DNA of 64,000 nucleotides from Streptomyces sp. MST-110588. GTDB taxonomy: Bacteria; Actinomycetota; Actinomycetes; Streptomycetales; Streptomycetaceae. A program made the translations under genes and the position numbers. The stretch covers positions 6,330,001 through 6,394,000 of the forward strand of contig NZ_CP074380.1 in NCBI RefSeq assembly GCF_022695595.1. Direction: 5' to 3'. Every line of letters begins with the position of its first letter. Position 1 is the first letter of the stretch. The notes under the pieces were generated by a model. It had not been told where the DNA came from and searched no databases. It saw nothing but the letters and a program-made list of their open reading frames with translations. Shown piece after piece: positions 15,492 to 34,361 of this stretch.

Positions 15492-17014
15492 ATGACCACG
15501 GGAACCGCCGGCACGGCCACGCCTGACCTGGAGAACTTCCGTACGCTCGCCAAGGACCGCCGGGTCGTCCCCGTCACCCGGCGCCTCCTGGCCGACGGTG
15601 ACACCCCGGTAGGGCTCTACCGCAAGCTCGCGGCCGAACGCCCCGGCACCTTCCTCCTGGAATCGGCCGAGAACGGCCGCACCTGGTCCCGGTATTCGTT
15701 CATCGGCGTACGCTGCGCCGCCACCTTGACCGCACGCGACGGGCAGGCGCACTGGCTGGGCACCCCGCCCGTGGGAGTGCCCACCGACGGCGACCCCCTC
15801 CAGGCGCTGCGCGCCACCGTCGAGATGCTGCACACCCCGCGCGACCTGATCGAGGACGAGGGCCTGCCGCCCTTCACCGGCGGCATGGTCGGCTACCTCG
15901 GCTACGACATCGTGCGCAGGCTGGAGAAGATCGGCGACAGCGGCACGGACGACCTCGGGCTGCCCGAGCTGACCATGCTGCTCACCTCCGACCTGGCCGT
16001 ACTGGACCACTGGAACGGCACGGTCCTGCTGATCGCCAACGCCATCAACCACGACGCCCTGGACTCGGGCGTGGACGAGGCGTACGCGGACGCCGTGGCC
16101 CGGCTGGACGCGATGGCCTACGACCTGGCCCGCCCGGCACCCGCCGGCGCCGCCGCGCTGCCCCCTTCCGAACTGCCCGAATACACCGTGAAATGGGGCG
16201 GCGCCGCTTACCAGGAGGCCGTGGAGGACATCAAGGAGCGCATCCGCGCGGGCGAGGCGTTCCAGGTGGTGCCCTCCCAGCGCTTCGAAACCCCCTGCAC
16301 GGCCTCGGCGTTGGACGTCTACCGCGTCCTGCGGGCCACCAACCCCAGCCCGTACATGTACCTCTTCCGCTTCGAGGGCGGGATCGACGTCGTCGGCTCC
16401 AGTCCCGAGGCGCTGGTCAAGGTCGAGGGCGGGCGTGCGATGGTGCACCCCATCGCCGGCACCCGCCCGCGCGGCGCCACCGTCCGCGAGGACCGGGCCC
16501 TGGCGGACGAACTGCTGGCCGACCCCAAGGAACGCGCCGAGCACCTGATGCTGGTCGACCTGGGCCGCAACGACCTGGGACGGGTCTGTGCGCCCGGCAG
16601 CGTCGAGGTCGTGGACTTCATGTCGGTCGAGCGCTACAGCCATGTCATGCACATCGTCTCCACGGTGACCGGCCGGCTCGCCCCGGGCCGTACCGCCTTC
16701 GACGTGCTGACCGCCTGCTTCCCGGCCGGCACCCTCTCCGGAGCGCCCAAGCCGCGGGCGATGCAGATCATCGAGGAGCTGGAGCCGTCCCGACGCGGTC
16801 TGTACGGCGGCTGCGTGGGCTATCTGGACTTCGCCGGGGACTCCGACACGGCCATCGCGATCCGTACGGCGCTGCTGCGGGACGGCACCGCGTACGTCCA
16901 GGCGGGCGCGGGGTCGTCGCGGACTCCGACCCGGTGGCCGAGGACACCGAGTGCCGCAACAAGGCTGCGGCGGTGCTGCGGGCCGTGGCCACGGCCAACA
17001 GGCTGGGACGGTAG
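15492..17014 (+). CDS. trpE: anthranilate synthase component I, frameshifted near the C terminus
   Basis: The product converts chorismate to anthranilate with a TrpG-type subunit (not in this window). The N-terminal domain holds the Trp feedback region [19 protein letters not shown]. The chorismate-binding domain has [43 protein letters not shown] and [15 protein letters not shown]. The frame breaks at GGGG (16910-16913): upstream it reads AYVQAGAG; the next frame continues [25 protein letters not shown] to TAG at 17014, exactly the family ending. One G appears missing. As written, translation runs to 17030 with an unrelated tail, losing conserved active-site-adjacent residues. This is either a sequencing error or a real lesion causing Trp auxotrophy. 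Confidence 0.88.
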
Positions 17015-17361
17015 CGGCGGGTTGGTGTGAAGGCCCCCGGTGCGCTGTGCCGACGCGCTTTCGAGATGGTGGTGGCGACGGTGGCGGCTTCGGGGCGGGA
17101 CGGCCCGTGGGCGGCGGGGCGCCGGGCCATGCCCGTGGTCCGGGGCTGTCGTCCGGGTCCGTGCGCCGGAGCCCGGCGCGCTCGCGCCCGGTGCGTCGGA
17201 CGTGCCACACGCCGGCGCCCGGGGCGCCACACGCCGGGGCCCGACGCCTCACGCGCGCCGGGAGACGGTCACCGTACGCCGGGGCCCGCACGCACCGGGC
17301 GCCGGAGCCCGAGGACACCCCGCACGCCGGGGTACGGCCGGGCGTGCGCCATAGTGGAGGT
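17015..17361. other. gap after trpE with degenerate repeats
   Basis: About 350 bp with no credible gene. From about 17200 to 17335 loose copies of CACGCCGGGGCCCG recur with 20- to 24-bp spacing. A CATAGT hexamer at 17350-17355 precedes the next gene and may be its -10 element. Confidence 0.4.
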
Positions 17362-18087
17362 GTGAGTGCCCTACCCCAGTCCCGTACCGCCGCCGCGTCC
17401 GCGACCGCCGCGTCCGGACCCGCCGCATCGGCATCCCCCGCGTCGGCGTCCGCAGGCGAGAGCGTGAGCCCCGGCCCGAGCCGGGAGAAGGGCGCGCCGC
17501 GCAGCGCGCGCCGCAGCCTCGCGCTCGCGCTGCTGTGCGGCGCGGCGGGCGCCGCCGTGGTGCTGCTGGCCTCCGGCCGTACCTGGGCCGAGGCCACCGC
17601 GCGGGTCGTGCAGGGCGCGCTGCCGCAGACCGCCTCCGGCCAGGACGTCACGGGCGTGCCCGGTGCGCTGGCCGTCGTCGGGCTCGCCGCCCTGGTCGCC
17701 GTCTTCGCCGTACGCCGGGCCGGCCGGATCGCGGTCGCGGCCCTGCTGACCCTCAGCGGCCTGGGCATCGTGATCGCCGCCTTCCTCGGCGCCTCGGACA
17801 CCGCGGCACTGAAGGAGAAGGCCGCCACCGTGACCGGCCTGACCGGCGCGGACGTGGAGAACGTCAGCCACACCGCGTGGCCGTGGGTGGCGGTGGCCGG
17901 CGGCCTCCTGCTGCTGCTCGCCGGGCTGCTGGCGCTGGCGTACGGACGGCACTGGCCGGCCATGTCCGGACGCTACGAGCGCCCCTCCGGCGGCTCCCGC
18001 AGCCCGCGCCGAGCCGCGGCGGCCGACCCGGAGCGGCCGGAGGAGATCTGGAAGTCGCTGGACCGGGGCGAGGACCCGACCCGGTAG
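17362..18087 (+). CDS. Trp-operon-associated membrane protein (Trp_oprn_chp type)
   Basis: A 241-residue protein with four hydrophobic helices: LALALLCGAAGAAVVLLASG, ALAVVGLAALVAVFAV, IAVAALLTLSGLGIVIAAFLG and WPWVAVAGGLLLLLAGLLALAYG. The spacing and the GRTWAEATARV segment match the actinobacterial tryptophan-associated membrane protein family found near trp genes. Function unknown. The first 45 residues are Ala/Ser/Pro-rich. The GTG at 17362 has GGAGGT directly upstream and a CATAGT hexamer six bases before, so leaderless start and SD-led start are both possible. Confidence 0.8.
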   Translation: MSALPQSRTAAASATAASGPAASASPASASAGESVSPGPSREKGAPRSARRSLALALLCGAAGAAVVLLASGRTWAEATARVVQGALPQTASGQDVTGVPGALAVVGLAALVAVFAVRRAGRIAVAALLTLSGLGIVIAAFLGASDTAALKEKAATVTGLTGADVENVSHTAWPWVAVAGGLLLLLAGLLALAYGRHWPAMSGRYERPSGGSRSPRRAAAADPERPEEIWKSLDRGEDPTR

Positions 18088-18467
18088 GACCTGCGGGTTC
18101 TCAGGTTTCGTGTCGGACGCTCAGTCTCAGAGCTGATGCCGAACCGCCGTCGGATGCGACACCCATCGCAAGACAGCCCAGGTCAGGGACCGGCGGCCCG
18201 AAGCCGCCCGGCGCGGACGGTCGGGCACAGGACGTGGAAGCGGGAATCCAGCGTCCGGCACGTCGTGAGATGGCGGGCGAAGCCGCAGGTCATGAAGGCG
18301 GCATCCGATACGGGCGGCGAGGACCTGCCGGACCCCGACAGGCCCCGGCCGGCCCCGGCGGACCCCGGCAGGACCCGGTAGCGGGGTTGCCCCGGGCATC
18401 GGGGACAATGGACGTCGAGGTATCACCGCGCCCCGACTCTGGCGCGACAGATCAGCGAGGAGCACTC
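18088..18467. other. 380-bp gap, no convincing gene
   Basis: The region holds imperfect GGACCCCGGCAGG-like repeats (about 18325-18380) and a GACAAT hexamer at about 18406-18411 that may serve the next gene. The open frames here are Arg/Pro-rich and lack family features. Confidence 0.4.
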
Positions 18468-18713: not shown

Positions 18714-18799
18714 GCCCCGGAGCCGAAGCCGGGACCGGCATCCTGAGTCATGGCCCGGGCAGGCTCCGCGGCCGGGGTTCCGGGCCGCCGGAGGCGTCG

Positions 18800-18889
18800 G
18801 GACCGTCTGATCCGCCGGGTCGGTCAGCTCTGCCGGGACCGTCGGATCAGCCGGTGCGGTCAGGTCCGGCGGGCCGGTCGGCTTCGGCG
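18800..18889. repeat. five 18-bp tandem repeats in an intergenic region
   Basis: Units start at 18800, 18818, 18836, 18854 and 18872, for example GGACCGTCGGATCAGCCG and GGTCGGTCAGCTCTGCCG. The array lies in the 271-bp gap between the HGxxPAAW gene and the DUF2752 gene. Read on the reverse strand it could encode hexapeptides such as VPAELT and DPADQT, but no real gene is apparent there. Confidence 0.75.
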
Positions 18890-18984
18890 GGCGGAGACCG
18901 GCAGGGGCCAGGGCGCGGCTCGCCGGCCGCCTGTACGCACCCCGTACGGCGGCCGGCAAGCCGCGCCCTCGCGCGTACGGAGGC

Positions 18985-20915: not shown

Positions 20916-22340
20916 ATGTCTTCTGACTTCTTCGTTCCGGACCCGGAAGGCCGAGTCCCCAGCGCCGAGGGCTACTTCGGCGCGTTCGGCGGCAAGTTCA
21001 TCCCCGAGGCGCTGGTCGCCGCGGTGGACGAGGTCGCCGCCGAGTACGAGAAGGCCAAGGCGGACCCCGCCTTCGCGGCCGAGCTGAACGACCTGATGGT
21101 CAACTACACCGGTCGGCCCAGCGCCCTGACCGAGGTGCCCCGGTTCGCCGAACACGCCGGTGGCGCCCGGGTGTTCCTCAAGCGCGAGGACCTCAACCAC
21201 ACCGGCTCGCACAAGATCAACAACGTGCTGGGCCAGGCGCTGCTCACCAAGCGCATGGGCAAGACCCGGGTCATCGCGGAGACCGGCGCCGGCCAGCACG
21301 GCGTGGCCACCGCGACCGCCTGCGCCCTCTTCGGCCTGGAATGCACCATCTACATGGGCGAGGTCGACACCGAGCGCCAGGCCCTGAACGTCGCCCGCAT
21401 GCGGATGCTCGGCGCCGAGGTCATCGCCGTGAAATCCGGCAGCCGCACCCTGAAGGACGCCATCAACGAGGCGTTCCGCGACTGGGTCGCCAACGTGGAC
21501 CGCACCCACTACCTCTTCGGTACGGTCGCCGGCCCGCACCCCTTCCCGGCCCTGGTCCGCGACTTCCACCGGGTCATCGGCGTCGAGGCACGCCGGCAGA
21601 TCCTGGAGCGCACCGGCCGGCTGCCGGACGCCGCCGTGGCCTGCGTCGGCGGCGGCTCCAACGCCATCGGCCTCTTCCACGCCTTCATCCCGGACAGCGA
21701 CGTACGGCTGGTCGGCTGCGAGCCGGGCGGGCACGGGGTGAGCACCGGCGAGCACGCGGCCACCCTCTCCGCGGGCACCCCGGGCATCCTGCACGGCTCC
21801 CGCTCCTACGTGCTCCAGGACGAGGACGGCCAGATCACCGAGCCGTACTCGATCTCGGCGGGGCTGGACTACCCGGGCATCGGCCCCGAGCACTCCTACC
21901 TCAAGGACGTCGGCCGCGCCGAATACCGGGCGGTCACCGACGACGACGCGATGCGGGCGCTGCGGCTGCTCTCGCAGACCGAGGGCATCATCCCGGCGAT
22001 CGAGAGCGCACACGCCCTCGCGGGCGCCCTGGAGATCGGCCGCGAGCTGGGGCGGGACGGGCTGCTGCTGGTCAACCTCTCCGGGCGCGGCGACAAGGAC
22101 ATGGACACCGCCGCCCGCTACTTCGGGCTGTACGACAACGCCCACGACACCGACAGCGACGGTGACGGCGCCACCGGCGCCGCCCACGACGACACGACCA
22201 CCCGGGGGAGAAGTAAATGGCAGGCAAGGTGGAGTTGCTCGGTTCCGTCCTGGCGGCGGCCAAGGCCGAGAACCGGGCCGCACTCGTCGGCTATCTGCCG
22301 GCCGGCTTCCCGTCCGTGGACGGCGGCGTACGGGCCCTGA
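20916..22340 (+). CDS. trpB: tryptophan synthase beta subunit, apparent run-on into trpA
   Basis: The beta subunit condenses indole with serine. PLP lysine is in [15 protein letters not shown]; glycine-rich phosphate site is [31 protein letters not shown] and [18 protein letters not shown] are also typical. The family normally ends soon after YFGLYD. Here the frame passes an Asp-rich tail and continues 124 bases into trpA, giving residues with no family likeness. Adding one G to the run at 22204-22208 would give an ending Glu-Lys-stop (TAA 22214-22216), directly before the trpA ATG. A one-base deletion or sequencing error is therefore suspected. The enzyme core is intact either way. Confidence 0.9.
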
Positions 22341-23035
22341 CGGCGATGCTGGAGGGCGGCTGCGACATCGTCGAGGTCGGCCTTCCGCACAGCGACCCGG
22401 TCCTGGACGGCCCGGTGATCCAGACCGCCGACGACATCGCGCTGCGCGGCGGAGTGAAGATCGTCGACGTGATCGGTACGGTCCGCGAGGTGCACGCCGC
22501 GACCGGCGCGCCGGTGCTGTGCATGACGTACTGGAACCCCGTCGACCGCTACGGCGTCGAGCGGTTCGCTGCCGACCTCGCCGAGGCCGGCGGCGCGGGC
22601 TGCATCCTGCCCGACCTGCCGGTCGAGGAGTCCGAGGTGTGGTGCAAGGCCGCCGAACAGCACGGCCTGGCCACGGTGTTCGTGGTCGCGCCGAGCAGCC
22701 GGGACGAGCGGCTGGCCAAGATCACCGCGGCCGGCAGCGGCTTCGTCTACGCCGCCTCGCTGATGGGCGTCACCGGTACCCGCGAGTCGGTCGGCCGGGA
22801 GGCGCAGGACCTGGTACGGCGCACCCGCGCGGTCACCGAACTGCCGGTGTGCGTCGGGCTCGGCGTCTCCACGCCCGGCCAGGCGGCCGAGGTGGCTCAG
22901 TTCGCGGACGGGGTCATCGTCGGCTCGGCCTTCGTCAAGCGGCTGCTCGCCGCGCCGGACGACCTTCAGGCGGGGCTCGCGGGCGTCCGCGAACTCGCGG
23001 GAGAGCTGGCCGAGGGCGTACGCAAGCGCGCATGA
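22217..23035 (+). CDS. trpA: tryptophan synthase alpha subunit
   Basis: A 272-residue barrel that cleaves indole-3-glycerol phosphate and channels indole to TrpB. Catalytic Glu region [11 protein letters not shown]...[22 protein letters not shown], catalytic Asp in [12 protein letters not shown], and phosphate site [28 protein letters not shown] (parts) are visible. GGGGGAG lies a few bases upstream of the ATG at 22217. It is the last trp gene, followed by an 18-bp repeat array and a terminator. Confidence 0.95.
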
Positions 23036-23053
23036 CAGGACGACGGACCTGAC

Positions 23054-23233
23054 GGGTGCGACGGGTCTCATGGGCCTGATGGGCGCGCCGGGCTTGACGG
23101 GTGCGCCGGGCATGACGGGCGTACCGGGCCTGATCAGCGCTTCGGGTCTGACGGACCCGATGGGTCCGGTGGATCTGCTGGGCCTGATGGATGTGCTGGG
23201 CCGGGCGGGGTTGCCGGGCCGGACGGGTGTGAC
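23054..23233. repeat. ten 18-bp tandem repeats downstream of trpA
   Basis: Ten consecutive 18-bp units, each starting with GGG, begin at 23054 and every 18 bp to 23216, for example GGGCTTGACGGGTGCGCC and GGGCATGACGGGCGTACC. This is the longest array in the window. Read forward from an ATG at 23070 it would give collagen-like hexapeptides (GLMGAP, GLTGAP, GMTGVP) in a 78-residue frame, but there is no ribosome site and the frame ends in unremarkable sequence. A non-coding minisatellite is more likely. Confidence 0.85.
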
Positions 23234-23354
23234 ACCGTGCGGTCGGGCTCGGTCCGGGGCGTTCCGGGTACGGACCGTCCCGGACCGGCCCCGGGCCGCT
23301 CCGTGAGGCCGATGCCCGTACGGGACCGCGTCATCCGTTAGGGCGAACCGTGGG

Positions 23355-23382
23355 GCGGAGGGGTGCGAACGCGCCCCTCCGC
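23355..23382 (+). terminator. terminator after the trp genes
   Basis: GCGGAGGGG (23355-23363) pairs with CCCCTCCGC (23374-23382). Inner pairs extend the stem to about 12 bp with a GAAC loop, and TTCGTT follows. It lies between trpA and the DsbA-like gene. Confidence 0.8.
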
Positions 23383-23398
23383 TTCGTTGTCCAGGGGC

Positions 23399-24427
23399 GT
23401 GAGCGAGAACAATCCACAGGCCCGGAACAATCCAGGGGCGGACGGCCCGGGGGCCAAGAGCCCAGGCCCGACCAGCAGTGCCCGCGAGCGGCTGCAGGCC
23501 CAGCGAGAAAAGGAGAAGGCGCGCGCACGGCGCGGACGGCAGATGAAGGTCGCCGCCGCCGTGGCCGCGGTGCTGGTGGTGGCCGGCGGCGTCGCCGTGT
23601 GGGCGACGCAAGGGGGCGAGGACTCCGGCAGCGGAGAAGTGGTGGCCGCGCCGAAGGGCACCGAGGGCGGCGACAAGCCCATCGTCCCGGTCGGCGCACA
23701 GGACGCCCCCTCCACCCTCACCGTGTGGGAGGACTTCCGCTGTCCCGCCTGCGGCCAGTTCGAGAACGGTTTCCGCGCCACCATCCGCGAGCTGGAGGAC
23801 GCCGGCCAGCTCAAGAGCGACTACCACCTCGCGACGATCATCGACGGCAACATGGGCGGCAGGGGCTCGCTCACCGCCGGCAACGCGGCACTGTGCGCGC
23901 AGGACGCGGGCAGGTTCCGCGACTACCACGACGTGCTGTACAAGAACCAGCCGCCGGAGCAGAGCGACGGCTTCGCCGACAAGAAGCACCTGATCGAACT
24001 CGCCGGAAAGGTCGACGGACTCGTCGGCGAGAAGTTCACCCGGTGCGTCAACGACGGTACCTACAACGACTTCGTACGGAAGTCCAACGACGCGTTCGCC
24101 GCCTCCGGCCACCGCGGCACCCCGACCGTCCTCCTCAACGGCAAGAACCTCGCGGACGAGGGCGACCAGTTCACCCCGGACGCATTCAAGAAGATGGTCC
24201 AGGACACCGCCAAGGGCAAAAAGGCGGCCAAGCAGACGGGAGAAGGGCCGGAGAAGGAGCCGGGCAAGACACCGGGCAAAGAACCCGGCAAGGACAAGGA
24301 AGTCGAGAAGGCTTCCGGCGAGGACGACGGCAAGGGGACCGGCGGCCGGACCGGGAAGGCGCCGGGCGAGGAGGTCGACAGGGCAGTCGGCGGCGCGAAG
24401 ACCGGACAGGCCGGTCAGGCCGGGTAG
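23399..24427 (+). CDS. membrane-anchored DsbA-like thioredoxin-fold protein
   Basis: A 342-residue protein. Residues about 30-45 are charged (REKEKARARRGRQ), then one membrane helix (VAAAVAAVLVVAGGVAVWA), placing the rest outside the cell. The thioredoxin/DsbA-type domain has FRCPACGQFENGFRATI with a CxxC active site, the helical insert with ALCAQDAGRFRDYHDVLY, and the cis-Pro region GHRGTPTVLLNGK. Such proteins form or shuffle disulfides in exported proteins. The last 85 residues are Lys/Glu/Gly-rich repeats (EPGKTPGKEPGKDKE). GTG 23399 is chosen because the longer frame from 23363 would start inside the terminator. Confidence 0.85.
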   Translation: MSENNPQARNNPGADGPGAKSPGPTSSARERLQAQREKEKARARRGRQMKVAAAVAAVLVVAGGVAVWATQGGEDSGSGEVVAAPKGTEGGDKPIVPVGAQDAPSTLTVWEDFRCPACGQFENGFRATIRELEDAGQLKSDYHLATIIDGNMGGRGSLTAGNAALCAQDAGRFRDYHDVLYKNQPPEQSDGFADKKHLIELAGKVDGLVGEKFTRCVNDGTYNDFVRKSNDAFAASGHRGTPTVLLNGKNLADEGDQFTPDAFKKMVQDTAKGKKAAKQTGEGPEKEPGKTPGKEPGKDKEVEKASGEDDGKGTGGRTGKAPGEEVDRAVGGAKTGQAGQAG

Positions 24428-24637: not shown

Positions 24638-25678
24638 ATGGACCTCGCATTCATTCCCAGCCCCTCGACCGGTGTCGTGCACCTCGGCCCGATCCCGCTG
24701 CGCGGCTACGCTTTCTGCATCATCATCGGCGTCTTCGTCGGCGTCTGGCTCGGCAACAAGCGCTGGATCCAGCGCGGCGGCCGGTCCGGGACCGTCGCCG
24801 ACATCGCCGTGTGGGCCGTGCCCTTCGGGCTCGTCGGCGGTCGCCTCTACCACGTCATCACGTCCTACGAACCGTACTTCGGTGAGGGCGGCCACCCCAT
24901 CAACGCCCTGAAGGTGTGGGAAGGCGGCCTCGGTATCTGGGGCGCGGTCGCGCTCGGTGCCGTCGGTGCCTGGATCGGCTGCCGTCGGCGCGGCATCCCG
25001 CTCCCGGCGTACGCGGACGCGCTGGCACCCGGCCTCGCGCTGGGCCAGGCGATCGGCCGTTGGGGCAACTGGTTCAACCAGGAGCTGTACGGGCGCGCGA
25101 CCGACCTGCCCTGGGCGCTGAAGATCAGCGACGACCCGGCCATCGGGCGCGTCGGCGGCACCTACCACCCGACCTTCCTGTACGAGTCGCTGTGGTGCAT
25201 CGGCGTCGCGGTCCTGGTCATCTGGGCGGACAAGCGCTTCAAGCTCGGCCATGGACGGGCCTTCGCGCTGTACGTGGCCTCGTACTGCGCGGGCCGCGCC
25301 TGGATCGAGTACATGCGGGTGGACGAGGCCCACCACATCCTGGGGCTGCGCCTCAACGTGTGGACCGCGATCATCGTCTTCATCCTGGCCGTCGTCTACA
25401 TGGTCGTCTCCGCGGCGAAGGTCCCGGGCCGCGAGGAGATCGTCGAGCCGGGCGCCCAGGAACAGGACGCCGACGAGAACACCACCGAGGACACCCCTGC
25501 TGACGCGCCGGTCGGCACCAAGGGCAACCCGAAGCCGGCGGGCAGCGGTAGCACCGGGAAGGCCGCGAAACCCGCGGGCGGCAGCACCAAGGGCGCCCCG
25601 AAGTCCGTCGGCAGCGGCGAGGACACGGCCAAGGACAAGGCGAAGCCGGCCGGTAGCGGCGGCACCCAGAAGCCCTGA
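24638..25678 (+). CDS. lgt: prolipoprotein diacylglyceryl transferase
   Basis: A 346-residue polytopic membrane enzyme that adds diacylglycerol to the lipobox cysteine of prolipoproteins. The Lgt signature GRWGNWFNQELYGRATDLPW and the conserved RLYHVITSYEPYF are present, with seven probable membrane helices. The C-terminal 90 residues are a hydrophilic Lys/Pro/Gly/Ser tail (KPAGSGSTGKAAKPAGGSTK) common in Streptomyces Lgt. The sequence TAGCGT lies ten bases before the ATG, and no ribosome site is seen, so the transcript may be nearly leaderless. Confidence 0.93.
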   Translation: MDLAFIPSPSTGVVHLGPIPLRGYAFCIIIGVFVGVWLGNKRWIQRGGRSGTVADIAVWAVPFGLVGGRLYHVITSYEPYFGEGGHPINALKVWEGGLGIWGAVALGAVGAWIGCRRRGIPLPAYADALAPGLALGQAIGRWGNWFNQELYGRATDLPWALKISDDPAIGRVGGTYHPTFLYESLWCIGVAVLVIWADKRFKLGHGRAFALYVASYCAGRAWIEYMRVDEAHHILGLRLNVWTAIIVFILAVVYMVVSAAKVPGREEIVEPGAQEQDADENTTEDTPADAPVGTKGNPKPAGSGSTGKAAKPAGGSTKGAPKSVGSGEDTAKDKAKPAGSGGTQKP

Positions 25679-25736
25679 CGTGTCCGCCGCACCGTAGGAA
25701 CCGGCGACGGACCTGTTCGCGCGACACCGCCACCGA

Positions 25737-25764
25737 GGCCGCGGTCCCGAAGGGGACCGCGGCC
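25737..25764. terminator. 12-bp perfect hairpin between convergent genes
   Basis: GGCCGCGGTCCC (25737-25748), loop GAAG, and GGGACCGCGGCC (25753-25764). An A-T pair extends it and TTCGTG follows. It serves lgt and probably also the end of the reverse-strand CoA-lyase operon at 25913. Confidence 0.85.
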
Positions 25765-25912
25765 TTCGTGCTGTGCGGTCCTTCGCGCTGGGTGATTCCT
25801 TGTGTTGCGCGTCTTTCATGCGATGCGGTCCTTGAACTCAGGGATTTTTGTGCCGTGCGGCCTCGGGCGAAGCGGAGCGGGACAGACCGGGGAGCGGCGG
25901 AGTCAGGGGCCG
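25765..25912. other. short gap between the terminator and the CoA lyase gene
   Basis: Slightly lower GC than its surroundings (TTCCTTGTGTTGCGCG, CAGGGATTTTTGTG). No gene or repeat is seen. Confidence 0.4.
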
Positions 25913-26977
25913 TCATGGGCAGCGGTCCCGGTGGCGGTGGGCCAGGGCCAGTACGCGACGGGCGCCCGCGACCACGGCCGCGTCGACGAAGCGTCCGTCG
26001 GGCAGGGACAGCGCACCCGCGTCCGCACCCGCCGCCCGTACCGTCTCCTCGGCTGCCGCTATCTCTTCCGGCGTGGGCAGATAAGCCCGTTCGATGACCG
26101 GCAGTTGACGGGGATGTATCGCCGCCCGGCCCAGGAACCCCAGGGCGCGGCCTCGCGCGCAGGAAAGCGCCAGGCCCGCGGTGTCGCGCACGTGGGGATA
26201 GACCGACTGCGCTGGAGGCGCCAGGCCCGCGGCGCACGCGGCGACGACGGCCCGGCCCCGCGCCCAGCACAGACCGGCGTCGTCGCGTACCCCCAACTCG
26301 GCACGGAGATCGGCCTCGCCCAGGGCGATGCCGCACACAGCGGGATGCGCGAGGGCGATGGCGAAGGCGTTCTCCACCCCTAGCGCGGATTCCAGCAGGG
26401 CGTACAAGCAGGGCACCCGGCGAGGACCACCACCCTCGCCCGTGGCCTCACTCCCCGGCCCGCCGCCGGCCGGCTGTGGACGTACGGGGCGAGCCGTATC
26501 GGCGGCCCAGGCCGCGACCCGTACGACATCGGCCGGCCCCTTCACCTTGGGGAGCCGCAGTCCCGCCAGGCCGGGGAGCGGAGCCAGGGTACGTACCTCG
26601 GTCTCGGCGAGCGGACCGTCCAGGGCGTTGATGCGTACGTGGACAGGGACCGGGCCGACGGCGGCATCGCTGAGGAGCTCGGCCGTGGCACGCAGGGCGT
26701 AGCGCTTACGGCCCGGCGCGACCGCGTCCTCCAGATCGATCAGCACCACATCGGCGCCGGAACCGAGCGCCTTGGTGACCGTCTTTGGACGGTCACCGGG
26801 CACATACAGCCAGGTGAGAGGCGCCGCCGTGACAGCAGTCGGGACCGAGGACGCGACCACGGCGGCGTTCACGGAAGCGGAGGCGGGGGCGGCCGGGAAG
26901 GCAGGGGCCGGCGCCGGCGGGGTGCCGGCGGGCGGCGCGGGAGCGGTGACGGACGGCGGTGGAACAGCGGTGTTCAC
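25913..26977 (-). CDS. HpcH/HpaI-type CoA-ester lyase (citrate lyase beta-like)
   Basis: A 354-residue protein of the CitE/HpcH fold. After a Pro/Ala-rich head of about 65 residues come TWLYVPGDRPKTVTKALGSGADVVLIDLEDAVAPG (metal/CoA site region), LPKVKGPADVVRVAAW, LYALLESALGVENAFAIA (Mg-binding Glu) and AIHPRQLPVIERAY. These match (citramalyl/malyl) CoA lyases and CitE-like proteins; the substrate cannot be read from sequence. GTG 26977 overlaps the stop of the CoA transferase gene (GTGA), so it is the last gene of a coupled operon. Confidence 0.85.
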   Translation of the reverse strand: MNTAVPPPSVTAPAPPAGTPPAPAPAFPAAPASASVNAAVVASSVPTAVTAAPLTWLYVPGDRPKTVTKALGSGADVVLIDLEDAVAPGRKRYALRATAELLSDAAVGPVPVHVRINALDGPLAETEVRTLAPLPGLAGLRLPKVKGPADVVRVAAWAADTARPVRPQPAGGGPGSEATGEGGGPRRVPCLYALLESALGVENAFAIALAHPAVCGIALGEADLRAELGVRDDAGLCWARGRAVVAACAAGLAPPAQSVYPHVRDTAGLALSCARGRALGFLGRAAIHPRQLPVIERAYLPTPEEIAAAEETVRAAGADAGALSLPDGRFVDAAVVAGARRVLALAHRHRDRCP

Positions 26978-28275
26978 AGGGCACCTTCTTCGCGCAGGGC
27001 GGCGATCTCCGTTGCGGTGAGTCCGATGGCGGCCAGGACCTCGTCCGTGTCGGCACCGTGCGGCCGGCCGGCCCACCTGATGGCACCGGGGGTTCCGGAG
27101 AGACGAAAGAGCACGTTCTGCATACGGACCGTCCCCAGCTCCTCGTCGGGAATCCCGGTGATGGTTCCCAGGGCCCGGTACTGCTCGTCCTCCATCACAT
27201 CGCGGATGTCCTGGACGGGCGCGACCGCTGCCTCGGCTTTCTCGAACGCGGCCATCACCTCGGCCCGCCCGTGCCGGGCTATCCAGCCGCCGACCGCGGC
27301 ATCCAGCTCATCGGCGTGCCGGGCGCGCCCCGCGCCGGTGGCGAACCAAGGCTGTTCGAGGAACTCCGGCCGGCCCACCAGCCGCATGACGCGTTCGGCC
27401 ACGGACTGCGCGGAGGCCGAGACGGCCAGCCACGAGCCGTCGGCGGTGCGGTAGAGGTTGCGCGGCGCGTTGCCGGGGGTCCGGTTGCCCGTACGAGGCT
27501 GGACGTACCCGAGCTGGTCGTACCAAATGGGCTGCGCGCCGAGTACCGTCAGCATCGGCTCGATGATCGCCAGGTCCACCACCTGGCCGACGCCGGTGGT
27601 ATCACGCCCGCGCAGGGCCGCCATGACCGCGTAGGAGGTGGTCAGCGCGGCGATGGAATCGGCGAGGCCGAAGGGCGGCAGGACCGGCGGGCCGTCCGGT
27701 TCGCCGGTGATCGCAGCGAAGCCGCTCATCGCCTCGGCGAGGGTGCCGAAGCCGGGGCGGCGTGCGTACGGGCCGGACTGACCGAACGCGGTGACGCGGG
27801 CCAGCACCAGCCGGGGATTGACGGCGCGCAGCTCCGTCCAGCCCAGGCCCCACTTCTCCAAGGTGCCGGGCCGGAAGTTCTCGATCACCACGTCCGAACG
27901 CGCGGCGAGGCGCAGCAGCACGTCACGGCCGCCCGGTGTGGACAGGTTCAGGGCGATGGTCTTCTTGTTCCGCCCGAGCAGCTTCCACCACAGGCCGACG
28001 CCGTCCTTGGCGGGGCCGTGTCCACGAGCGGGATCGGGCCGGTCCGGATGCTCGACCTTGATCACTTCGGCGCCGAAGTCACCGAGCATGGTGGCGGCCA
28101 GCGGCCCCGCGAAGAGCGTGGCGAGATCGAGAACGCGTAACCCCTGGAGCGGACCGGGCCCGGCTTCAGGCCCGGCTTCGGGCCCGGCACCGGGACGGGA
28201 GCCGGGGCCGGCGGCAGAGCCGGGAACGGGCTCGGGTCCGGTCTCCGGTTCGGGAGAAAGAGGGGGAACTGTCAT
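26974..28275 (-). CDS. CaiB/BaiF family CoA transferase
   Basis: A 433-residue class III CoA transferase. LQGLRVLDLATLFAGPLAATMLGDFGAEVIKVEHP is the family opening; GRNKKTIALNLSTPGGRDVLLRL and SDVVIENFRPGTLEKWGLG carry the conserved Asp/Asn-Phe-Arg-Pro block; SGPYARRPGFGTLAEAMSG follows. The N-terminal 40 residues are Gly-Pro-Glu-Ala repeats of 12 bp each. It moves CoA between acids; the acid is unknown. The ATG overlaps the upstream ARH stop (ATGA). Pairing with a CoA lyase suggests activation then cleavage of a branched or hydroxylated acid. Confidence 0.9.
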   Translation of the reverse strand: MTVPPLSPEPETGPEPVPGSAAGPGSRPGAGPEAGPEAGPGPLQGLRVLDLATLFAGPLAATMLGDFGAEVIKVEHPDRPDPARGHGPAKDGVGLWWKLLGRNKKTIALNLSTPGGRDVLLRLAARSDVVIENFRPGTLEKWGLGWTELRAVNPRLVLARVTAFGQSGPYARRPGFGTLAEAMSGFAAITGEPDGPPVLPPFGLADSIAALTTSYAVMAALRGRDTTGVGQVVDLAIIEPMLTVLGAQPIWYDQLGYVQPRTGNRTPGNAPRNLYRTADGSWLAVSASAQSVAERVMRLVGRPEFLEQPWFATGAGRARHADELDAAVGGWIARHGRAEVMAAFEKAEAAVAPVQDIRDVMEDEQYRALGTITGIPDEELGTVRMQNVLFRLSGTPGAIRWAGRPHGADTDEVLAAIGLTATEIAALREEGAL

Positions 28276-30023
28276 GGCCGGTGTACCTCCTGCCGGTCGG
28301 TGTCGGTACGGGTGTGGGTGTGGGTGTCGGTACGGGGGCGGGTGCGGGCATCAGGGGGCGCCGGCTGGGCGACGAGGGCGGCCGTGCGCTCCGCGAGGAC
28401 GTCGAAACCGATGCCGTCCAGGCCGCCGACGGAAGTGGCCAGACGATTGCGCAGCGGCGTGGTCCAGCGGCCGGGCAGGGCGGACGGGGCGCCGGCCAGG
28501 AGACCGGTGAGTGATCCGGCCGTCGCGCCGTTGGAATCGGTGTCCCAGCCGCCGGAGACGACACGGCAGATGGCACCGGCGAAGTCGCCGTCGGCGTGGG
28601 TGAGGGCGGCGGCGAGCAGCGCGGCGTTCGGCACGACGTGCACCCAGTGGTGGTGCCCGTAGACGGTGTGCAGGCGGTCCACCACACGCGCGAAGCCGGT
28701 GGGGGAGCCGGTCGGTTCCTCCTGCGCCGTCCGGATGCCGAACCGGACGGCGTGGGCGAGCCGGGCCCGTGGCGGAACGACGGCGAGCCCTGCCCGCAGA
28801 CAGCCGTGGACGTCCGAACTCCCGCCGCCTGCCTCCGCGATGGCGGCAGCGGCGAACATCGCCCCGTACACACCGTTGGCGGTGTGGGTGAGCACGGCGT
28901 CCCGCCACGCCTCCTCCGCCGCGGCGCCCGGGTCACCCGGGTTGGTCCAGCCGAAGACGTCCGCGCGGATCAGCGCACCGATCCACTCCCGGTAGGGGTT
29001 GCGGTGCCGTGCGGTGAGCGGGGGCTCGAACCCGTCCAGCAGATTGCGGTACGCGACGCGCTCGGCGGTGAACGTACGGCCCGCCGGGAGCTGTGCCAGC
29101 CACAACCGGGCGACATCGGCGGTGCCGAAGCCATGACCGTGCCGCTGGAGGAGAAGCAGCCCCAGCAGCGGATAGTTGAGGTCGTCGTCCTCGGGCATCC
29201 CGTCGATGTTCTCGGCGAGCGAGGTGAGACGGCTGCGCCGGTTCCAGGGGTACCGGGCGGCGACGGCGGGGTCCAGCCCGGCCCCGGTGAACCAGGTGCG
29301 CAACGGCCAGTTGCCGGTGGCGCGTGCGAGGGCACGGATTCCCGCGAGCGGCAGCTTCTCCACCGGCTTGCCGAGCAGGCACCCGGCGGCCCGCCCCAGC
29401 CAGGCCGCTTCCAGCCGCTCCCGGGTCGCAGCACCGGCCAAGGGAACGGAGGTTGACGGGTCGGCGGTCGACAGCGCGGCGGTCGTCGGTGCAGTGGCTG
29501 GAGATGGAGTGACTGGGGGTGGGCTGACTGGAGACGGGGTGGTGGGAGGTGGGGCGGTCGTAGGCGCGGCGTTCAGGGGCCCGGCGGGTGGGTGTGTGGG
29601 CGAGGGCCAGGCCGGGCAGGCGGCCTTGATCGCGTCCAGGCCGGTCGGCTCGGCCGCCGCCAACGGTGAGGGAATGGCAGCCAGTTCGTCCAGCAGCCGT
29701 TCGGCCAGGGCGCGCAGGGGCAAATCCGCGGGACCGGGGGAGGCACCGGCCCGGGCGGGAGCCGGTCCACCGCCCGCCGCCAGCCAGCGGCGCTCGATCA
29801 CCGTGGCGTCCCGCCCGTCCTCGGCGGCCTGCCGCAGCTCGTGCCCGAGCAGGTCCTCGGGCTGCACCCAGGTGAGCCGTAGGGGTGTGGACGTGCGGTC
29901 CCGGGCTTCCACGTCGGGGGGCGGCCCGGCAGCGGCCGACGGCCGGGGACCGGAACCGGGTGGAGGGACGGGCGTGAAACCGGGCGGAGGGACGGGCGTG
30001 AAACCGGGCGGAGGAGGACGCAT
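28272..30023 (-). CDS. ADP-ribosylglycohydrolase-family protein 1 (longest)
   Basis: A 583-residue ARH/DraG-fold protein. The first 210 residues are divergent and Pro/Thr/Ser-rich, starting with PPGFTPVP repeats. The ARH domain begins ERLEAAWLGRAAGCLLGKPVEKLP; first metal block is GMPEDDDLNYPLLGLLLLQ; the second is VVSGGWDTDSNGATAGSLTGLLAGA, with the paired Asp residues kept. The family removes ADP-ribose or ribose-linked groups from proteins or small molecules using two Mg ions. Substrate unknown. The ATG shares one base with the upstream stop (TGATG). Confidence 0.87.
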   Translation of the reverse strand: MRPPPPGFTPVPPPGFTPVPPPGSGPRPSAAAGPPPDVEARDRTSTPLRLTWVQPEDLLGHELRQAAEDGRDATVIERRWLAAGGGPAPARAGASPGPADLPLRALAERLLDELAAIPSPLAAAEPTGLDAIKAACPAWPSPTHPPAGPLNAAPTTAPPPTTPSPVSPPPVTPSPATAPTTAALSTADPSTSVPLAGAATRERLEAAWLGRAAGCLLGKPVEKLPLAGIRALARATGNWPLRTWFTGAGLDPAVAARYPWNRRSRLTSLAENIDGMPEDDDLNYPLLGLLLLQRHGHGFGTADVARLWLAQLPAGRTFTAERVAYRNLLDGFEPPLTARHRNPYREWIGALIRADVFGWTNPGDPGAAAEEAWRDAVLTHTANGVYGAMFAAAAIAEAGGGSSDVHGCLRAGLAVVPPRARLAHAVRFGIRTAQEEPTGSPTGFARVVDRLHTVYGHHHWVHVVPNAALLAAALTHADGDFAGAICRVVSGGWDTDSNGATAGSLTGLLAGAPSALPGRWTTPLRNRLATSVGGLDGIGFDVLAERTAALVAQPAPPDARTRPRTDTHTHTRTDTDRQEVHRP

Positions 30024-31360
30024 CAGGCACCCGCAATCATCGTGAAGGCACGCTCATGGGCGTCACGGCGCTGCCGGTCCCGGGCGAAGACCTCTCGGCT
30101 GACCGCGGCGAGGGCCACGGCCGGGGCCCTCAGGTCCAGTCTGCTGGCGCGGGAGACCTCCTCGCTCCACTCCGCGGGGACCGCCCGCGCGCCCTGAAGA
30201 GCACCGACGAGCGCACCGCACATCGTGGCGATGGAGTCGCAGTCGCGCCCGTAGTTGACCGCTCCCAGGACCGTACGGCGGAAGTCGCCGCCACCGACGA
30301 GCAGCATGCCCAGAGCGATCGGCAACTCCTCGATGGAGTGGAGCCGCGAGGGCCGCCGGGCGCCCAGGGAGGGCTGACGATAAGCGGGTCCGACCGTGTC
30401 GAAGGGCGCCACGGCCTCGCGCAGCGGCCCGAGCGCGGCCTCGAAGTCCGCATACCGGGCCGCGGTGTCGCAGACCGCCTCAATGGCGGCGCGGGTGCCG
30501 TCCTTGGCGAGTAAGAGCGCGGCCTCGACCACGGAGGCGGGGCAGGCGCCCGGCTCGCAGGCCGCGGCGACCGCCGCCGCGAAGACACCGGCGGCCTCCC
30601 GCCCGTACGAGGACTGGTGCGCGCCCGCGACGTCCAGCGCCTCCGCGTAAGCCCCGGCCGGGTGACCGGCGTTGACCAGGCCGACCGGTGCCATGTACAT
30701 GGCGGCACCGCAGTTGACGACATTGCCGACGCCCGCCTCGCGCGGATCGGCATGTCCGTAGTGCAGCCGGGTCACGATCCACTTCTCGGCGAGGAAGACA
30801 CGCTGGAGCAGCAGCGCTTCGGCCTCCAGCTCCGGGATCCAGCGCGGGGTGCCGATGAGGTCGGGCACGAGGTGCTCGGCGACGGCGTACGCGTCGAGGT
30901 GGTCGCGGACCTTCTCGTAGACCCGCACCAGCGCATGGGTCATGAGGGTGTCGTCCGTGACGTGTCCGTCGCCCTTGTGGTACGGCGCGATGGGCCGGGC
31001 CGTGCGCCAGTCCTCGTGATACGGACCGACGATGCCCTGGACGCGGTGACCGTACCGTTCCACGATCTGTTCCGGGCTCCAGCCCTCGACCGGGCCGCCG
31101 AGCGCGTCCCCGACCGCGGCTCCCACCAGGCAGCCGGCCGCGCGGTCTTCAAGAGTCGGCGGTACGGACGACCGGACCCGGGCCGGTCGTCGGGTCCCGG
31201 CCGTCGGCGTGGCGGCGGCACCGGCCACCGAAGGCTGCGCACCGGCCACCGCAGGCGGCGCACCGCCGTCATCCACCGGACAGGGAGGGGGAGCCGGGTG
31301 CCCTGGTGGTGCCGAGTGGGTCCGAGGTGCCGGTTGGGTGGAGCGGTGCGGGTGTGTCAT
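30023..31360 (-). CDS. ADP-ribosylglycohydrolase-family protein 2
   Basis: A 445-residue ARH protein. After a 70-residue Pro/Ala-rich head, LEDRAAGCLVGAAVGDALGGPVEG gives the family opening; the first metal block is GHVTDDTLMTHALVRVY; the second is VNYGRDCDSIATMCGALVGALQGA. These Asp/Thr/Ser positions fit a functional binuclear Mg site. GNVVNCGAAMYMAPVGLVNAG and SSYGREAAGVFAAAVAAA are helical core segments. Start ATG 31360 overlaps the upstream stop (ATGA); the longer frame to 31639 is read-through. Confidence 0.88.
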   Translation of the reverse strand: MTHPHRSTQPAPRTHSAPPGHPAPPPCPVDDGGAPPAVAGAQPSVAGAAATPTAGTRRPARVRSSVPPTLEDRAAGCLVGAAVGDALGGPVEGWSPEQIVERYGHRVQGIVGPYHEDWRTARPIAPYHKGDGHVTDDTLMTHALVRVYEKVRDHLDAYAVAEHLVPDLIGTPRWIPELEAEALLLQRVFLAEKWIVTRLHYGHADPREAGVGNVVNCGAAMYMAPVGLVNAGHPAGAYAEALDVAGAHQSSYGREAAGVFAAAVAAACEPGACPASVVEAALLLAKDGTRAAIEAVCDTAARYADFEAALGPLREAVAPFDTVGPAYRQPSLGARRPSRLHSIEELPIALGMLLVGGGDFRRTVLGAVNYGRDCDSIATMCGALVGALQGARAVPAEWSEEVSRASRLDLRAPAVALAAVSREVFARDRQRRDAHERAFTMIAGA

Positions 31361-33087
31361 GGGGAGGTCAACTCCTCCGTCGAAGGGCTCCGGTCCCCTC
31401 GTGGCGACGCGGAGCGAAGCGGCGAGCGGACCGGAGAGGCGTGCGGGGCGGACGGTTCCGTACGGGCGAGCAGGGCGGCCAGCTCCACGAGATCGGTGCC
31501 GGCCAGCCGGGGCAGTGCGCAGCCGGACAGCGTGCGGCAGGCGGCACGCCAGGTGCCGGGAATGCCGGCGGTTCCGCCGATCGCGCCGGTCAGCGCACCG
31601 GCCAGGGCGGGCGCGGAGTCCGCGACGCGGGAGAGACACGCGGCGGCCGGCACCGCCTCGGCCACCTGTCCACCACCCGCGACCGCCAGGGCGAGCGCCA
31701 CGGGAACGGTCTCGGCCGCGGCGATGCCATAGCTGTAGACGTGGTCCACGATCCCGTGCTCCAACGCCGGTACCAGGGCGAAGGCATTGCCGGGACGACC
31801 GGGCCGGTCGGCGGCCACCTCACGGGCGAGACGTACGGCGTGCAGCGTATTGCGACGGATCTCCGTCCCCTCCGGTAGCTGGTTCAGGGCCACCGACGCA
31901 CACTCCTCGGCGTCCGCGCCATCAAGGGCCGCGGCGACCGCCGCCGCCATCGCACGGGCTCCGTGCACACCGTCGCCGTCCTGGGTGTACCGGGCGTCGA
32001 ACTCCGCCAACTCCGCGGCGGCAAGCGGCTGTCCGAGGTGGACGACGGCCAGGACACAGGCGCGTACGCAGGCCGCGTCGTCGAAGAAGTGCGGGTTGTC
32101 ATGGCCGGTGGCGGGCGGGCGCAACCCGGCGGCGAGGTTGCCCAGCCCGGCCCGTACGGAAATCCGGGCCCGCAGCGGCAGCACCGCGGATTCCACCTCG
32201 GGCGCCCGCTCGGCCGCCGCGGCCACCTCGCTCGCCAGCGCGTTCCACGCCAGGTCGATCGCCGCGCGCATCCCGCGGTCCCGGCCGGGACCGCCCGACG
32301 GCGCGCCCGCCGCCGTCAGGACGGCCTCGGCGGCGAAGGCGGCCCACTCGGCGTCGTCCGAGGGCCCCAGACGCAGCGGTTCCGGCGGCTGGTTGAGGGC
32401 GATGGGCACGGGTAGCGTCGTCGTCGCGTTCTGCTCGGCGAAGGTGTCCAGCTCGCGAGTCAGCCGACGGGTCCACTCCGGCATCCGCGCCGCCCGATGA
32501 CGTGCCGCGGGCCACCCCGCCGCGTCCCCCGCGGCCAGCCCGAGCAGCAGCCCCTCGATACGCCGCCGCTTCCCTTCCCTGCCCGCCTCTGCTTTCGCTT
32601 CCGCCTTCGCCTCACCGACCGTCCCCGCCTCCGCCTCACCGACCGTCCTCGTACCTCCTGCTACCGAAGCGGTCGTGTCCCCCGCTCCACTCACCCGGCA
32701 CGCAGCTCCCGCACCCCCTTCCACCCCCGCTTCCTCGCCCTCATCCACCACATCTGCCGCACCCGCCGCGTCGCCCCGGTCCACCGGAATCCCTGCGTCT
32801 GCCGGAGTCCCCGCATCCGTCGATGTCCCCGCATGCGTCGCGGCCTCTGAACCCGTCGGGGTCTCTGAACCTGTCGGCGTTCCCGCAACTGCCAGAGTCC
32901 GTGCTCCCGTTGGAGGCCCGGCGCCGGTCGCGCTCACCGCACCTCGTCGCTTCGCCTGGGCTCGTACCGGCTCGGCTGCAGCGGTACCCAAAGCGTTCGC
33001 GGGCCCGCCGACCGCGCCGTCACCCGACCGAGAGATCCGCGCGACGGCCGGACGCGGTGTTGCAGTGGGGGAGTGGTCGCAGGTCAT
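31357..33087 (-). CDS. ADP-ribosylglycohydrolase-family protein 3, metal site degenerate
   Basis: A 576-residue protein. The first 185 residues are low-complexity Ala/Gly/Thr-rich with hexapeptide repeats (GTPTGS, ETPTGS, GTPADA) from an 18-bp array. The ARH-like domain starts RRIEGLLLGLAAGDAAGWPAARH. The first block reads LGPSDDAEWAAFA, keeping two Asp but not the usual TDDT. The second reads LSRVADSAPALAGALTGAIGG, where family members have DxDT/DxDS. The second metal pair thus looks incomplete and hydrolase activity is doubtful. It may bind ligand or act with its paralogues. ATG 33087 overlaps the previous stop. Confidence 0.8.
   Translation of the reverse strand: MTCDHSPTATPRPAVARISRSGDGAVGGPANALGTAAAEPVRAQAKRRGAVSATGAGPPTGARTLAVAGTPTGSETPTGSEAATHAGTSTDAGTPADAGIPVDRGDAAGAADVVDEGEEAGVEGGAGAACRVSGAGDTTASVAGGTRTVGEAEAGTVGEAKAEAKAEAGREGKRRRIEGLLLGLAAGDAAGWPAARHRAARMPEWTRRLTRELDTFAEQNATTTLPVPIALNQPPEPLRLGPSDDAEWAAFAAEAVLTAAGAPSGGPGRDRGMRAAIDLAWNALASEVAAAAERAPEVESAVLPLRARISVRAGLGNLAAGLRPPATGHDNPHFFDDAACVRACVLAVVHLGQPLAAAELAEFDARYTQDGDGVHGARAMAAAVAAALDGADAEECASVALNQLPEGTEIRRNTLHAVRLAREVAADRPGRPGNAFALVPALEHGIVDHVYSYGIAAAETVPVALALAVAGGGQVAEAVPAAACLSRVADSAPALAGALTGAIGGTAGIPGTWRAACRTLSGCALPRLAGTDLVELAALLARTEPSAPHASPVRSPLRSASPRGDRSPSTEELTSP
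32786..32929. repeat. eight 18-bp tandem repeats inside ARH-family protein 3
   Basis: Eight 18-bp units start at 32786, 32804, 32822, 32840, 32858, 32876, 32894 and 32912, for example GGAGTCCCCGCATCCGTC and GGGGTCTCTGAACCTGTC. They encode hexapeptides on the reverse strand (GTPTGS, ETPTGS, GTSTDA, GTPADA). The copies differ a good deal, unlike recent slippage products. Confidence 0.8.
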
Positions 33088-34190
33088 GTGGCGGTCGCCT
33101 CCTCCAGGCATGGAGTGAGGAGGTCCGCGATGTCCAGAACGTGGTGACCCGCCATCGCCGGCAGGCAGCTCCCGCGGACGGGACCGATGAGGCGGGACCA
33201 GTCCTCCGGGACGCAACGGGCGCCGCCGAGCGCGCCCGCGAGGGCCCCGGCGACCGCCGCCGTGGTGTCGGCGTCGCGGCCCATGTTGACCGCCGTCAGT
33301 ACCGAGGCGGCGAAGTCGCCGGAGGCCGCGGCGAACGCGCCGAAGGCCAGACCGACCGCTTCGGGGGCCAGATCGGTCCACGGATAGCCGCCGACGACGA
33401 CGGCGGAGCGCACGGCCCGCTCGGTGCCGAGCTGGGTGATACCGGGGTCCAGACGGGAACGCTGGGCCGCGGCGACCGCGCGGCGCAGGGAACGGGCGGT
33501 CCAGGAGTCCTCGGGGACCACGGAGAGGGCCGCGGCGATCACGGCGTCGGTCGAGCCGGCGACCATGGCGGTGGCCACTCCGGCCGCCACCGCCCGGCCG
33601 CCGTAGATCCCCTCGCCTTCATGGCTGACCGTACCGTCGATGGAGACCAGCCTGGCGGCCTCGGCGGGCCGGCCGGCGGCGTAGACACCGAAGGGAGCGG
33701 CGCGCATGGCCAGGCCGTCGCTCCATGCGTGCCGGTGCTGGGCGGAGATGGGTGCGGCCAGTCCACGGCGCAGGTTCTCCAGCGTGCCGCGCTCGCTGAA
33801 CCCCGCGCCGCGAAAGGGACCTTCGTCCAGATCGGCGATCCATTGGTGCCAGGCCGCCTCGACGTGCGCGACGGTGAGCGCCGAGCCGTGTTCGGCCAGG
33901 ACGAGGCCGGAGAAGATGGCGTACTCGGTGTCATCCGTGCCGACCGGGTCCTCGTCCACGAACCCTTCGATACGGCCCCAGCGCCGGCGGATCTGGGACG
34001 GCTTCATGTTCTCGGCGGGGGCGCCCAGCGCGTCCCCGACGGCGAGCCCGAGCATCGCCCCGCGCGACCGCTCCCGCAGGCCGCAGGTGTCTTGGGGCAG
34101 GGACGGCACGGTACGCAGCCGGGTGCGGGGCGGAGGCGGAGGGACAGGGAAGGGCTGGGGCGGTGGTGGGGCGTGCAGTGCGCTGCTCAT
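33084..34190 (-). CDS. ADP-ribosylglycohydrolase-family protein 4
   Basis: A 368-residue ARH protein and first of the four paralogues to be transcribed. ARH opening is RSRGAMLGLAVGDALGAPAENM; first metal block is PVGTDDTEYAIFSGLVLAEHG; second is VNMGRDADTTAAVAGALAGALGGAR, so the canonical TDDT and DxDT sites are complete. This is the paralogue most like classical DraG/ARH enzymes. The N-terminal 40 residues are Pro-rich (APPPPQPFPVPPPPP). It is 171 bp downstream of the LacI gene stop; the gap holds GTGCGG/CTGCGG hexamer repeats. Confidence 0.9.
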   Translation of the reverse strand: MSSALHAPPPPQPFPVPPPPPRTRLRTVPSLPQDTCGLRERSRGAMLGLAVGDALGAPAENMKPSQIRRRWGRIEGFVDEDPVGTDDTEYAIFSGLVLAEHGSALTVAHVEAAWHQWIADLDEGPFRGAGFSERGTLENLRRGLAAPISAQHRHAWSDGLAMRAAPFGVYAAGRPAEAARLVSIDGTVSHEGEGIYGGRAVAAGVATAMVAGSTDAVIAAALSVVPEDSWTARSLRRAVAAAQRSRLDPGITQLGTERAVRSAVVVGGYPWTDLAPEAVGLAFGAFAAASGDFAASVLTAVNMGRDADTTAAVAGALAGALGGARCVPEDWSRLIGPVRGSCLPAMAGHHVLDIADLLTPCLEEATAT

Positions 34191-34361
34191 GGCGTGCCGT
34201 TCTGTCGTGCGGGTGCGGGTGCGGGTGTTACGAGTGGAGGTGCGGACGTAAGCGTGGGAATGAGCGCGACGGTGGTTGCGGCTGCGGCTGCGGCTGCGGT
34301 TCGGGTGTGGATGCGGATGCGGAAGGGAGCCGTAGGACGGAGGGAGGGGAGGGGGCCGCGC
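34191..34361. repeat. hexamer repeats between lacI-type gene and ARH 4
   Basis: GTGCGG units at about 34209-34228 and GGCTGC units at about 34277-34300, then GGTGTGGATGCGGATGCGG. These are simple six-base repeats and no terminator-like hairpin is evident, so the operon may continue from the regulator gene. Confidence 0.6.

Follow-up and report, generated by a model that had tools for sequence, protein, structure and literature searches.

A diverged 18-bp minisatellite gained in the trpA-dsbA spacer of a Streptomyces genome with a high density of tandem arrays

Bacterial minisatellites, or VNTR loci, consist of short units arranged head to tail. In the available part of a survey of prokaryotic satellites (PMC6749651), such arrays are scattered over genomes, are mostly unrelated between loci and occur both in non-coding and in coding DNA; long repeats are mostly multiples of three and are taken as coding. 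A table in that part lists 38 satellites for S. coelicolor, or 4.2 per Mb. The accessible text on archaeal Borg elements (PMC9879509) describes recent arrays of many periods that were born independently in spacers and in genes; those in coding DNA are divisible by three, compared with only 14-38% of the intergenic ones. Collagen-like coding repeats (Gly-X-Y) are a third system with which a comparison can be made, and have a 9-bp period led by GG.

The array described here, which lies between trpA and a dsbA-like gene, belongs to the first and already known kind, the bacterial minisatellite. Its head-to-tail units, and the arrays of unrelated sequence found elsewhere in coding and non-coding DNA of the same genome, are alike to those in the survey (PMC6749651, as far as its available part goes). 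The units here are, however, strongly diverged; a survey asking for well-matched copies may miss most of them, and the densities are not comparable. Likewise, Borg repeats, as they appear in the accessible text of PMC9879509, are perfect and A-rich, whereas those studied here are imperfect, GC-rich and located in a bacterial chromosome. By itself the array is a routine intergenic minisatellite, and the wider pattern to which it belongs is more useful.

The window, i.e. the whole stretch of DNA analysed, comprises 64,000 nt (positions 6330001-6394000) of a 7.9-Mb single-contig genome, G000, whose best trpA relatives are Streptomyces. On the forward strand, positions 23054-23233 contain ten imperfect 18-bp units, each made of two 9-bp halves, most of them led by GGG; 'twenty 9-bp units' is an equally valid description. 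The half-unit consensus is mostly GG[G/A]-[C/T]-N-[T/C/G]-G-[A/C/G]-[C/T], and each of the first nine half-units starts with GGG. Lags 18 and 9 gave self-identities of 0.67 and 0.56, respectively, compared with only 0.23-0.28 at lags 12, 15, 21 and 24. Tandem Repeats Finder (TRF) reported period 18 at 23072-23133 and at 23161-23204; when the 290-bp insert that contains the array underwent dinucleotide shuffling 200 times, only three of the shuffles gave any array with a score of at least 50. Row alignment, lag identity and TRF agree that the ten units reported in the preliminary description are real. Head-to-tail units of roughly 10-100 bp, repeated beyond chance, and a presence that differs between related genomes identify the array as a minisatellite or VNTR locus. 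Among the matches listed no genome of the same species was identified, the nearest trpA match being 89% identical. A genome search found no second copy; the next-best match covered 43 bp at 81%, and 42 further matches were weak, with E up to 10. A dispersed intergenic repeat family of the REP, ERIC or MIRU type was rejected, as the unit sequence is not repeated at several genomic sites.

The gene upstream is trpA, encoding the tryptophan synthase alpha chain (22217-23035, forward strand; an open reading frame matching PF00290, E 4.2e-78), with its stop codon at 23033-23035. We aligned the window with 46.9 kb of G036, a syntenic relative with about 90% DNA identity across much of the region. 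Directly after the trpA stop the window has 290 bp (23037-23326, forward strand) where the G036 spacer, in the alignment chain, has a single base. Besides the array, this insertion contains a GC-rich remainder, in which an inverted repeat lies at 23244-23293. Outside the insertion, in the part of the spacer common to relatives, a conserved GC-rich hairpin (23355-23382, forward strand) precedes a gene of the DsbA/thioredoxin-4 family with a GTG start (23399-24427, forward strand; PF13462, E 8.1e-22). The hairpin is shared by nine other non-varsoviensis sequences in the alignment; in S. varsoviensis (L058) the sequence at the site differs, yet it is able to pair as a hairpin.

Of 60 relatives searched, G036 gave the best match across hisD-hisC (91-92%). 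In trpA its identity is 87%, and among the matches listed G137, G194 and G090 are slightly closer (88-89%). The distance from the trpA stop to the hairpin, 319 bases in the window, is 30 in G036, 65 in G137, 102 in G194 and 85 in G090, and by this measure the latter three are also without the insertion. A simple hairpin pattern was matched in only 32 of 74 spacers, for which the median distance was 52 and the range 13-378. A check of this distance in 29 loci had 19 usable ones, the minus-strand loci L098, L100-L103, L109, L112, L113, L117 and L118 being excluded. Among the matches listed, from 391 other Streptomyces genomes, none passes base 840 of the 1204-base query, in which the array starts at base 838. 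Because the site is empty in G036, the distances are short in the relatives and the listed matches end at the array, the array was gained by this lineage within the spacer and is no gene remnant.

The same spacer was compared in 80 related loci, 74 of which have a dsbA-like neighbour; L029, L046, L048, L049, L054 and L073 gave no dsbA-like match and were dropped. In 13 of the 74, TRF found an array in the interval from the trpA stop to the first dsbA residue in the alignment. Six of these (L016, L018, L023, L027, L030 and L038) were not counted as spacer arrays, since their positions place them in the coding sequence for the N-terminus of the dsbA-like protein. Seven of the 74 relatives (L009, L010, L017, L041, L058, L059 and L065) have arrays of their own in the non-coding spacer, with differing units and with periods of about 20 (reported as 60), 17, 48, 12, 27, 11 and 14 bp, respectively. 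The trpA-dsbA spacer is a recurrent birthplace of arrays. The 27-bp array of S. varsoviensis (L058:3869-3972) has a TRF score of 166 and a 9-bp sub-period.

Insertions of this kind are found elsewhere in the window as well. At nine gaps in the alignment chain the window is longer than G036 by 76 to 294 bp, and eight of these insertions hold a TRF array with a score of at least 50. The insertions concerned lie in spacers, within the glutamate synthase gene gltB and, with the frame preserved, at the start of hisC. The array periods are 15, 18, 20, 22, 23, 26, 30 and 36; shuffles of the nine inserts reached a score of 50 in 0 to 24 of 200 cases. At the N-terminus of hisC (3446-3569, forward strand) an in-frame gain of 111 bp, 124 bp versus 13 bp in G036, contains an 18-bp array and gives a 41-residue GTxSGP-like tail in place of the four residues of G036. 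The insertion in gltB (37366-37457, forward strand) adds 87 bp, a length divisible by three, and contains a 30/15-bp array. The spacer insertions comprise 6069-6219 (151 bp versus 1 bp in G036; 26/13-bp array), 18088-18371 (a gain of 294 bp; 20-bp array) and the spacer at 18740-18939, which is 88 bp longer than in G036 and has a 36/18-bp array at 18798-18881. Two further insertions relative to G036 lie at 6925-7014 (period 23) and 17008-17514 (periods 22 and 15), while that at 43072-43182 contains no TRF array. Not among the nine are four larger gains in the window (512, 1232, 1621 and 9430 bp) and five gains in G036 (55, 74, 182, 582 and 4583 bp). G036 also carries its own arrays, among them ones of 24 and 30 bp at the tail of dsbA, and is longer at five gaps, which indicates that turnover was not one-sided. 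Given a relative for comparison, array birth in a high-GC genome becomes directly visible as insertion at sites that are empty in the other genome, both in spacers and in conserved enzymes.

The gltB insertion lies near the glutamine amidotransferase domain. In a separate part of the window, 25476-35588, about 10 kb corresponds to 683 bp in G036; this stretch contains two adjacent genes with ADP-ribosylglycohydrolase domains and many tandem repeats.

We consider it probable that the array is an ordinary non-coding minisatellite that slippage created, in a lineage where new arrays of this kind are frequent. Once the lineage had separated from the relatives examined, replication slippage or unequal recombination would have multiplied a G-rich 9-bp motif next to the trpA stop codon; the repeat unit would then have doubled to 18 bp and the array would have lengthened to about twenty half-units. 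Point mutation, mostly transitions, would then have let the array decay. The site, bounded by the trpA stop and the conserved hairpin that precedes dsbA, appears to be weakly constrained DNA where an insertion would be cheap. The same kind of process probably made many arrays of unrelated sequence and various periods across the genome; within genes, almost only multiples of three survive, 18 bp being the commonest of them. Among mechanisms, the best supported is replication slippage or unequal recombination between short direct repeats, with filtering by the reading frame where genes are hit and later decay through point mutation. The insertion, its repetitive composition, the mixed periods, the independent arrays of other species at this site and the high array density are observed directly, whereas slippage, the order of the steps and the lack of a function are inferred.

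Over all unit pairs there are 196 transitions and 111 transversions, and the mean pairwise divergence is 0.38 (38%). This exceeds the fourfold-site divergence from G036, which is 0.21 in hisD and 0.32 in trpA, and therefore the units either varied already when the array grew or lie in faster-evolving DNA. Such a high divergence, together with the stable RNA fold of the insert described below, fits a simple origin poorly. Simple neutral decay is a poor fit to a further feature, the invariance of unit positions 1, 2, 3 and 7 across all ten units, beside other positions that are very mixed. An effect of the transcribed strand is possible behind the invariant G and the mixed C/T positions.

In order to place the array in its genomic context, 78 stretches of 20 kb and the window were sampled (1.624 Mb; 1.56 Mb without the window) using a TRF score of at least 50; L181 and L182, chosen for their matches, were excluded from genome counts. 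Of 974 arrays found, the counts omit 17 that lie on gene borders. Coding DNA was assigned by a rough home-made gene finder based on codon usage, which misassigns some true coding DNA to the 'non-coding' class; its coding fraction was 80% in the G000 sample and 87, 84 and 81% in samples of other genomes. There were 499 coding and 458 non-coding arrays, compared with 83.5 and 13.0, respectively, in ten codon- or dinucleotide-preserving shuffles. Non-coding arrays numbered 1404 per Mb in G000, 415 in G137, 383 in G005 and 1131 in G340; the density is high in G000, but not there alone. Within the window, 2051-25475 has 18 arrays in 23.4 kb against 9 in 27.4 kb of the G036 counterpart, and 35589-43071 has two against none.

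It is tempting to ascribe such numbers to a chromosome-wide burst of de novo tandem duplication by which spacers and the ends of genes grew longer, with a mild 9/18-bp preference arising from the enzymology of the duplication step. The roughly 1400 arrays per Mb of non-coding DNA and the in-frame inserts in HisC and glutamate synthase speak for this scenario, which we nevertheless regard as doubtful. Coding arrays crowd at gene ends, with 84 of 445 in the first tenth of the gene and 69 of 445 in the last, as is expected if selection tolerates arrays there. If the high density holds genome-wide, the lineage would be a good natural test of minisatellite birth rates and of spacer lengthening in bacteria.

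G340 (L239-L258), a 5.3-Mb Streptomyces genome, is itself very rich in non-coding arrays, and among these 18 bp has no lead over 15 bp (7 versus 10). To our knowledge, this actinobacterial group is without MutS/MutL-type repair. Loss of the actinobacterial mismatch-repair nuclease NucS as a cause of the repeats was rejected in the form of a simple absence, as a predicted member of the NucS_C family is present in an open frame.

The preliminary description had emphasised one exact period, 18 bp, shared by six arrays of unrelated sequence. All six exist, where they were described or a few bases away, and Pfam supports the genes near them, namely an aminotransferase (taken as hisC, as it follows hisD), two genes with ADP-ribosylglycohydrolase domains, a pyridoxal-dependent decarboxylase and a lysine/ornithine monooxygenase. 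The choice of period was selective, however, since the window also has arrays of 13/26, 20, 21, 22, 23, 24, 27 and 30 bp. The array at 32786-32929, thought to lie in a gene for ARH protein 3, is between two ADP-ribosylglycohydrolase domain genes as called (31360-32484 and 33087-34109, minus strand); it is also inside an open reading frame, 31357-33381, that would extend the first gene at its N-terminus, and a coding location is thus possible.

In the genome sample 18 bp was the commonest period in both compartments. In coding DNA it accounted for 126 of 499 arrays, followed by 15 bp (70), 24 bp (61) and 21 bp (52); in non-coding DNA it accounted for 56 of 458, with 43 at 15 bp, 32 at 24 bp, 18 at 19 bp and 15 at 17 bp. 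When the window was left out, the figures were 122 of 481 and 52 of 434. The expected excess over shuffled sequence and over 15 and 21 bp is therefore present, and other periods are in excess too: ten shuffles gave on average 13.9 coding and 0.8 non-coding arrays at 18 bp, 12.3 and 0.7 at 15 bp, and 9.0 and 0.5 at 24 bp. A literature search of titles and the beginnings of abstracts recognised neither this array nor an 18-bp repeat class in Streptomyces.

These counts could be taken to mean that the lineage has an active, dedicated expansion process that prefers steps of 18 bp and makes coding and non-coding arrays alike. Consistent with this, 18 bp leads in both compartments and stands well above its non-coding neighbours at 17 and 19 bp; its lead in coding DNA persists at a score of at least 70, with 42 arrays against 31 at 24 bp and 25 at 15 bp; and arrays are 3.4 to 3.7 times as dense in the non-coding DNA of G000 as in two other Streptomyces samples, but just 1.2 times as dense as in a third. 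At a score of at least 70, however, non-coding arrays of 24 bp are no rarer than those of 18 bp (23 versus 21). The coding share of 18-bp arrays in G137, 23 of 90, is the same as the 122 of 481 found here (p = 1.0); it is lower in G340 (16 of 113, p = 0.013), and in G005 it is 9 of 57 (p = 0.14). Short convergent spacers (≤400 bp) provide the cleanest test, as a missed gene or wrong start is unlikely there. In these, 18 bp made up 7 of 77 arrays, with 4, 5, 5 and 4 at 15, 19, 21 and 24 bp, and under our home-made gene calls multiples of three made up 24 of 63 arrays of period 11-29 versus 6 of 19 expected (p = 0.28). In other short spacers multiples of three were 20 of 46 in divergent (p = 0.11) and 68 of 144 in tandem (p = 0.0001) arrangement, the latter excess being expected if part of such DNA is coding.

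The equal share in G137, the counts in convergent spacers and the range of periods from 15 to 36 among the new insertions relative to G036 weaken the case for a dedicated 18-bp process, and we judge it unlikely. What stands of the original proposal is a shared expansion acting on unrelated sequences, in that eight of the nine small insertions hold arrays, in spacers and in genes; a single process of 18-bp step is not supported, given new arrays of many periods, an equal share in G137 and no significant excess of multiples of three in convergent spacers. The mean identity at lag 9 of 18-bp arrays was 0.45 in coding DNA against a background of 0.34, and 0.43 against 0.33 in non-coding DNA. Having on average this 9-bp half-period, they probably arose in part by the doubling of 9-bp units, and the 18-bp mode is probably the result of such doubling and of reading-frame filtering. 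In coding DNA the mode is about twice as high as at neighbouring periods, which is explained only in part. As far as we could find, 18 bp is simply the commonest repeat length, with no special element behind it.

Two readings that give the array a function fare worse than slippage-born non-coding repetition. It is highly improbable that the array is, or is a relic of, a small collagen-like (Gly-X-Y) frame such as 23070-23306. An ATG-led open reading frame of 78 aa is present, and PF01391 was matched weakly in two forward frames, at 24.1 and 24.2 bits. Both scores are under the cut-off of 27.2 bits, and two different frames match equally, as a 9-bp period led by GGG would give by itself. Counts of the 45 between-unit changes, made with no formal test, were 12, 14 and 19 at first, second and third codon positions in the trpA frame and 14, 19 and 12 in the ATG-led frame. 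Change is thus not concentrated at third positions, and in neither frame is there the clear third-position excess that a translated sequence might show; a collagen-like protein was rejected on these grounds and on the Pfam scores. The codon-usage gene finder did not call the frame either, and unlike collagen-like repeats the stretch is an insertion into a spacer, with one base in its place in G036. The idea that the intergenic array was once coding is contradicted by the same observations: 290 bp have been inserted into a spacer that is usually short elsewhere.

Equally remote is a function as RNA, in which the insert would either form a structured 3' untranslated region on the trp transcript or insulate trpA and dsbA from each other: although the insert folds with a z of -4.63, no shuffle of 200 being as stable, and the GGG starts of the first nine half-units have a spacing that we take, by the quadruplex rule as we know it, to be G-quadruplex-like, the insert was not seen in the relatives examined whereas the adjoining hairpin is widely kept, the fold of the array by itself has only mild stability (z -2.40, equalled by 3 of 200 shuffles), tandem GC-rich units may easily pair among themselves, and no Rfam family passed its cut-off in 22900-23500.

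The Rfam search of 22900-23500 returned a single sub-threshold match, and a consensus scan of the same interval found neither a sigma-70 promoter nor a T-tailed terminator. Ahead of the dsbA-like gene, 23340-23398 has a TAGGGCGAA-like block and a strong GC hairpin that are conserved among the aligned relatives; this element is possibly a terminator or leader structure. Upstream, the trpB frame (20916-22340) extends 124 bp into trpA, which starts at 22217, and has a low-complexity tail rich in Asp, Gly and Thr.
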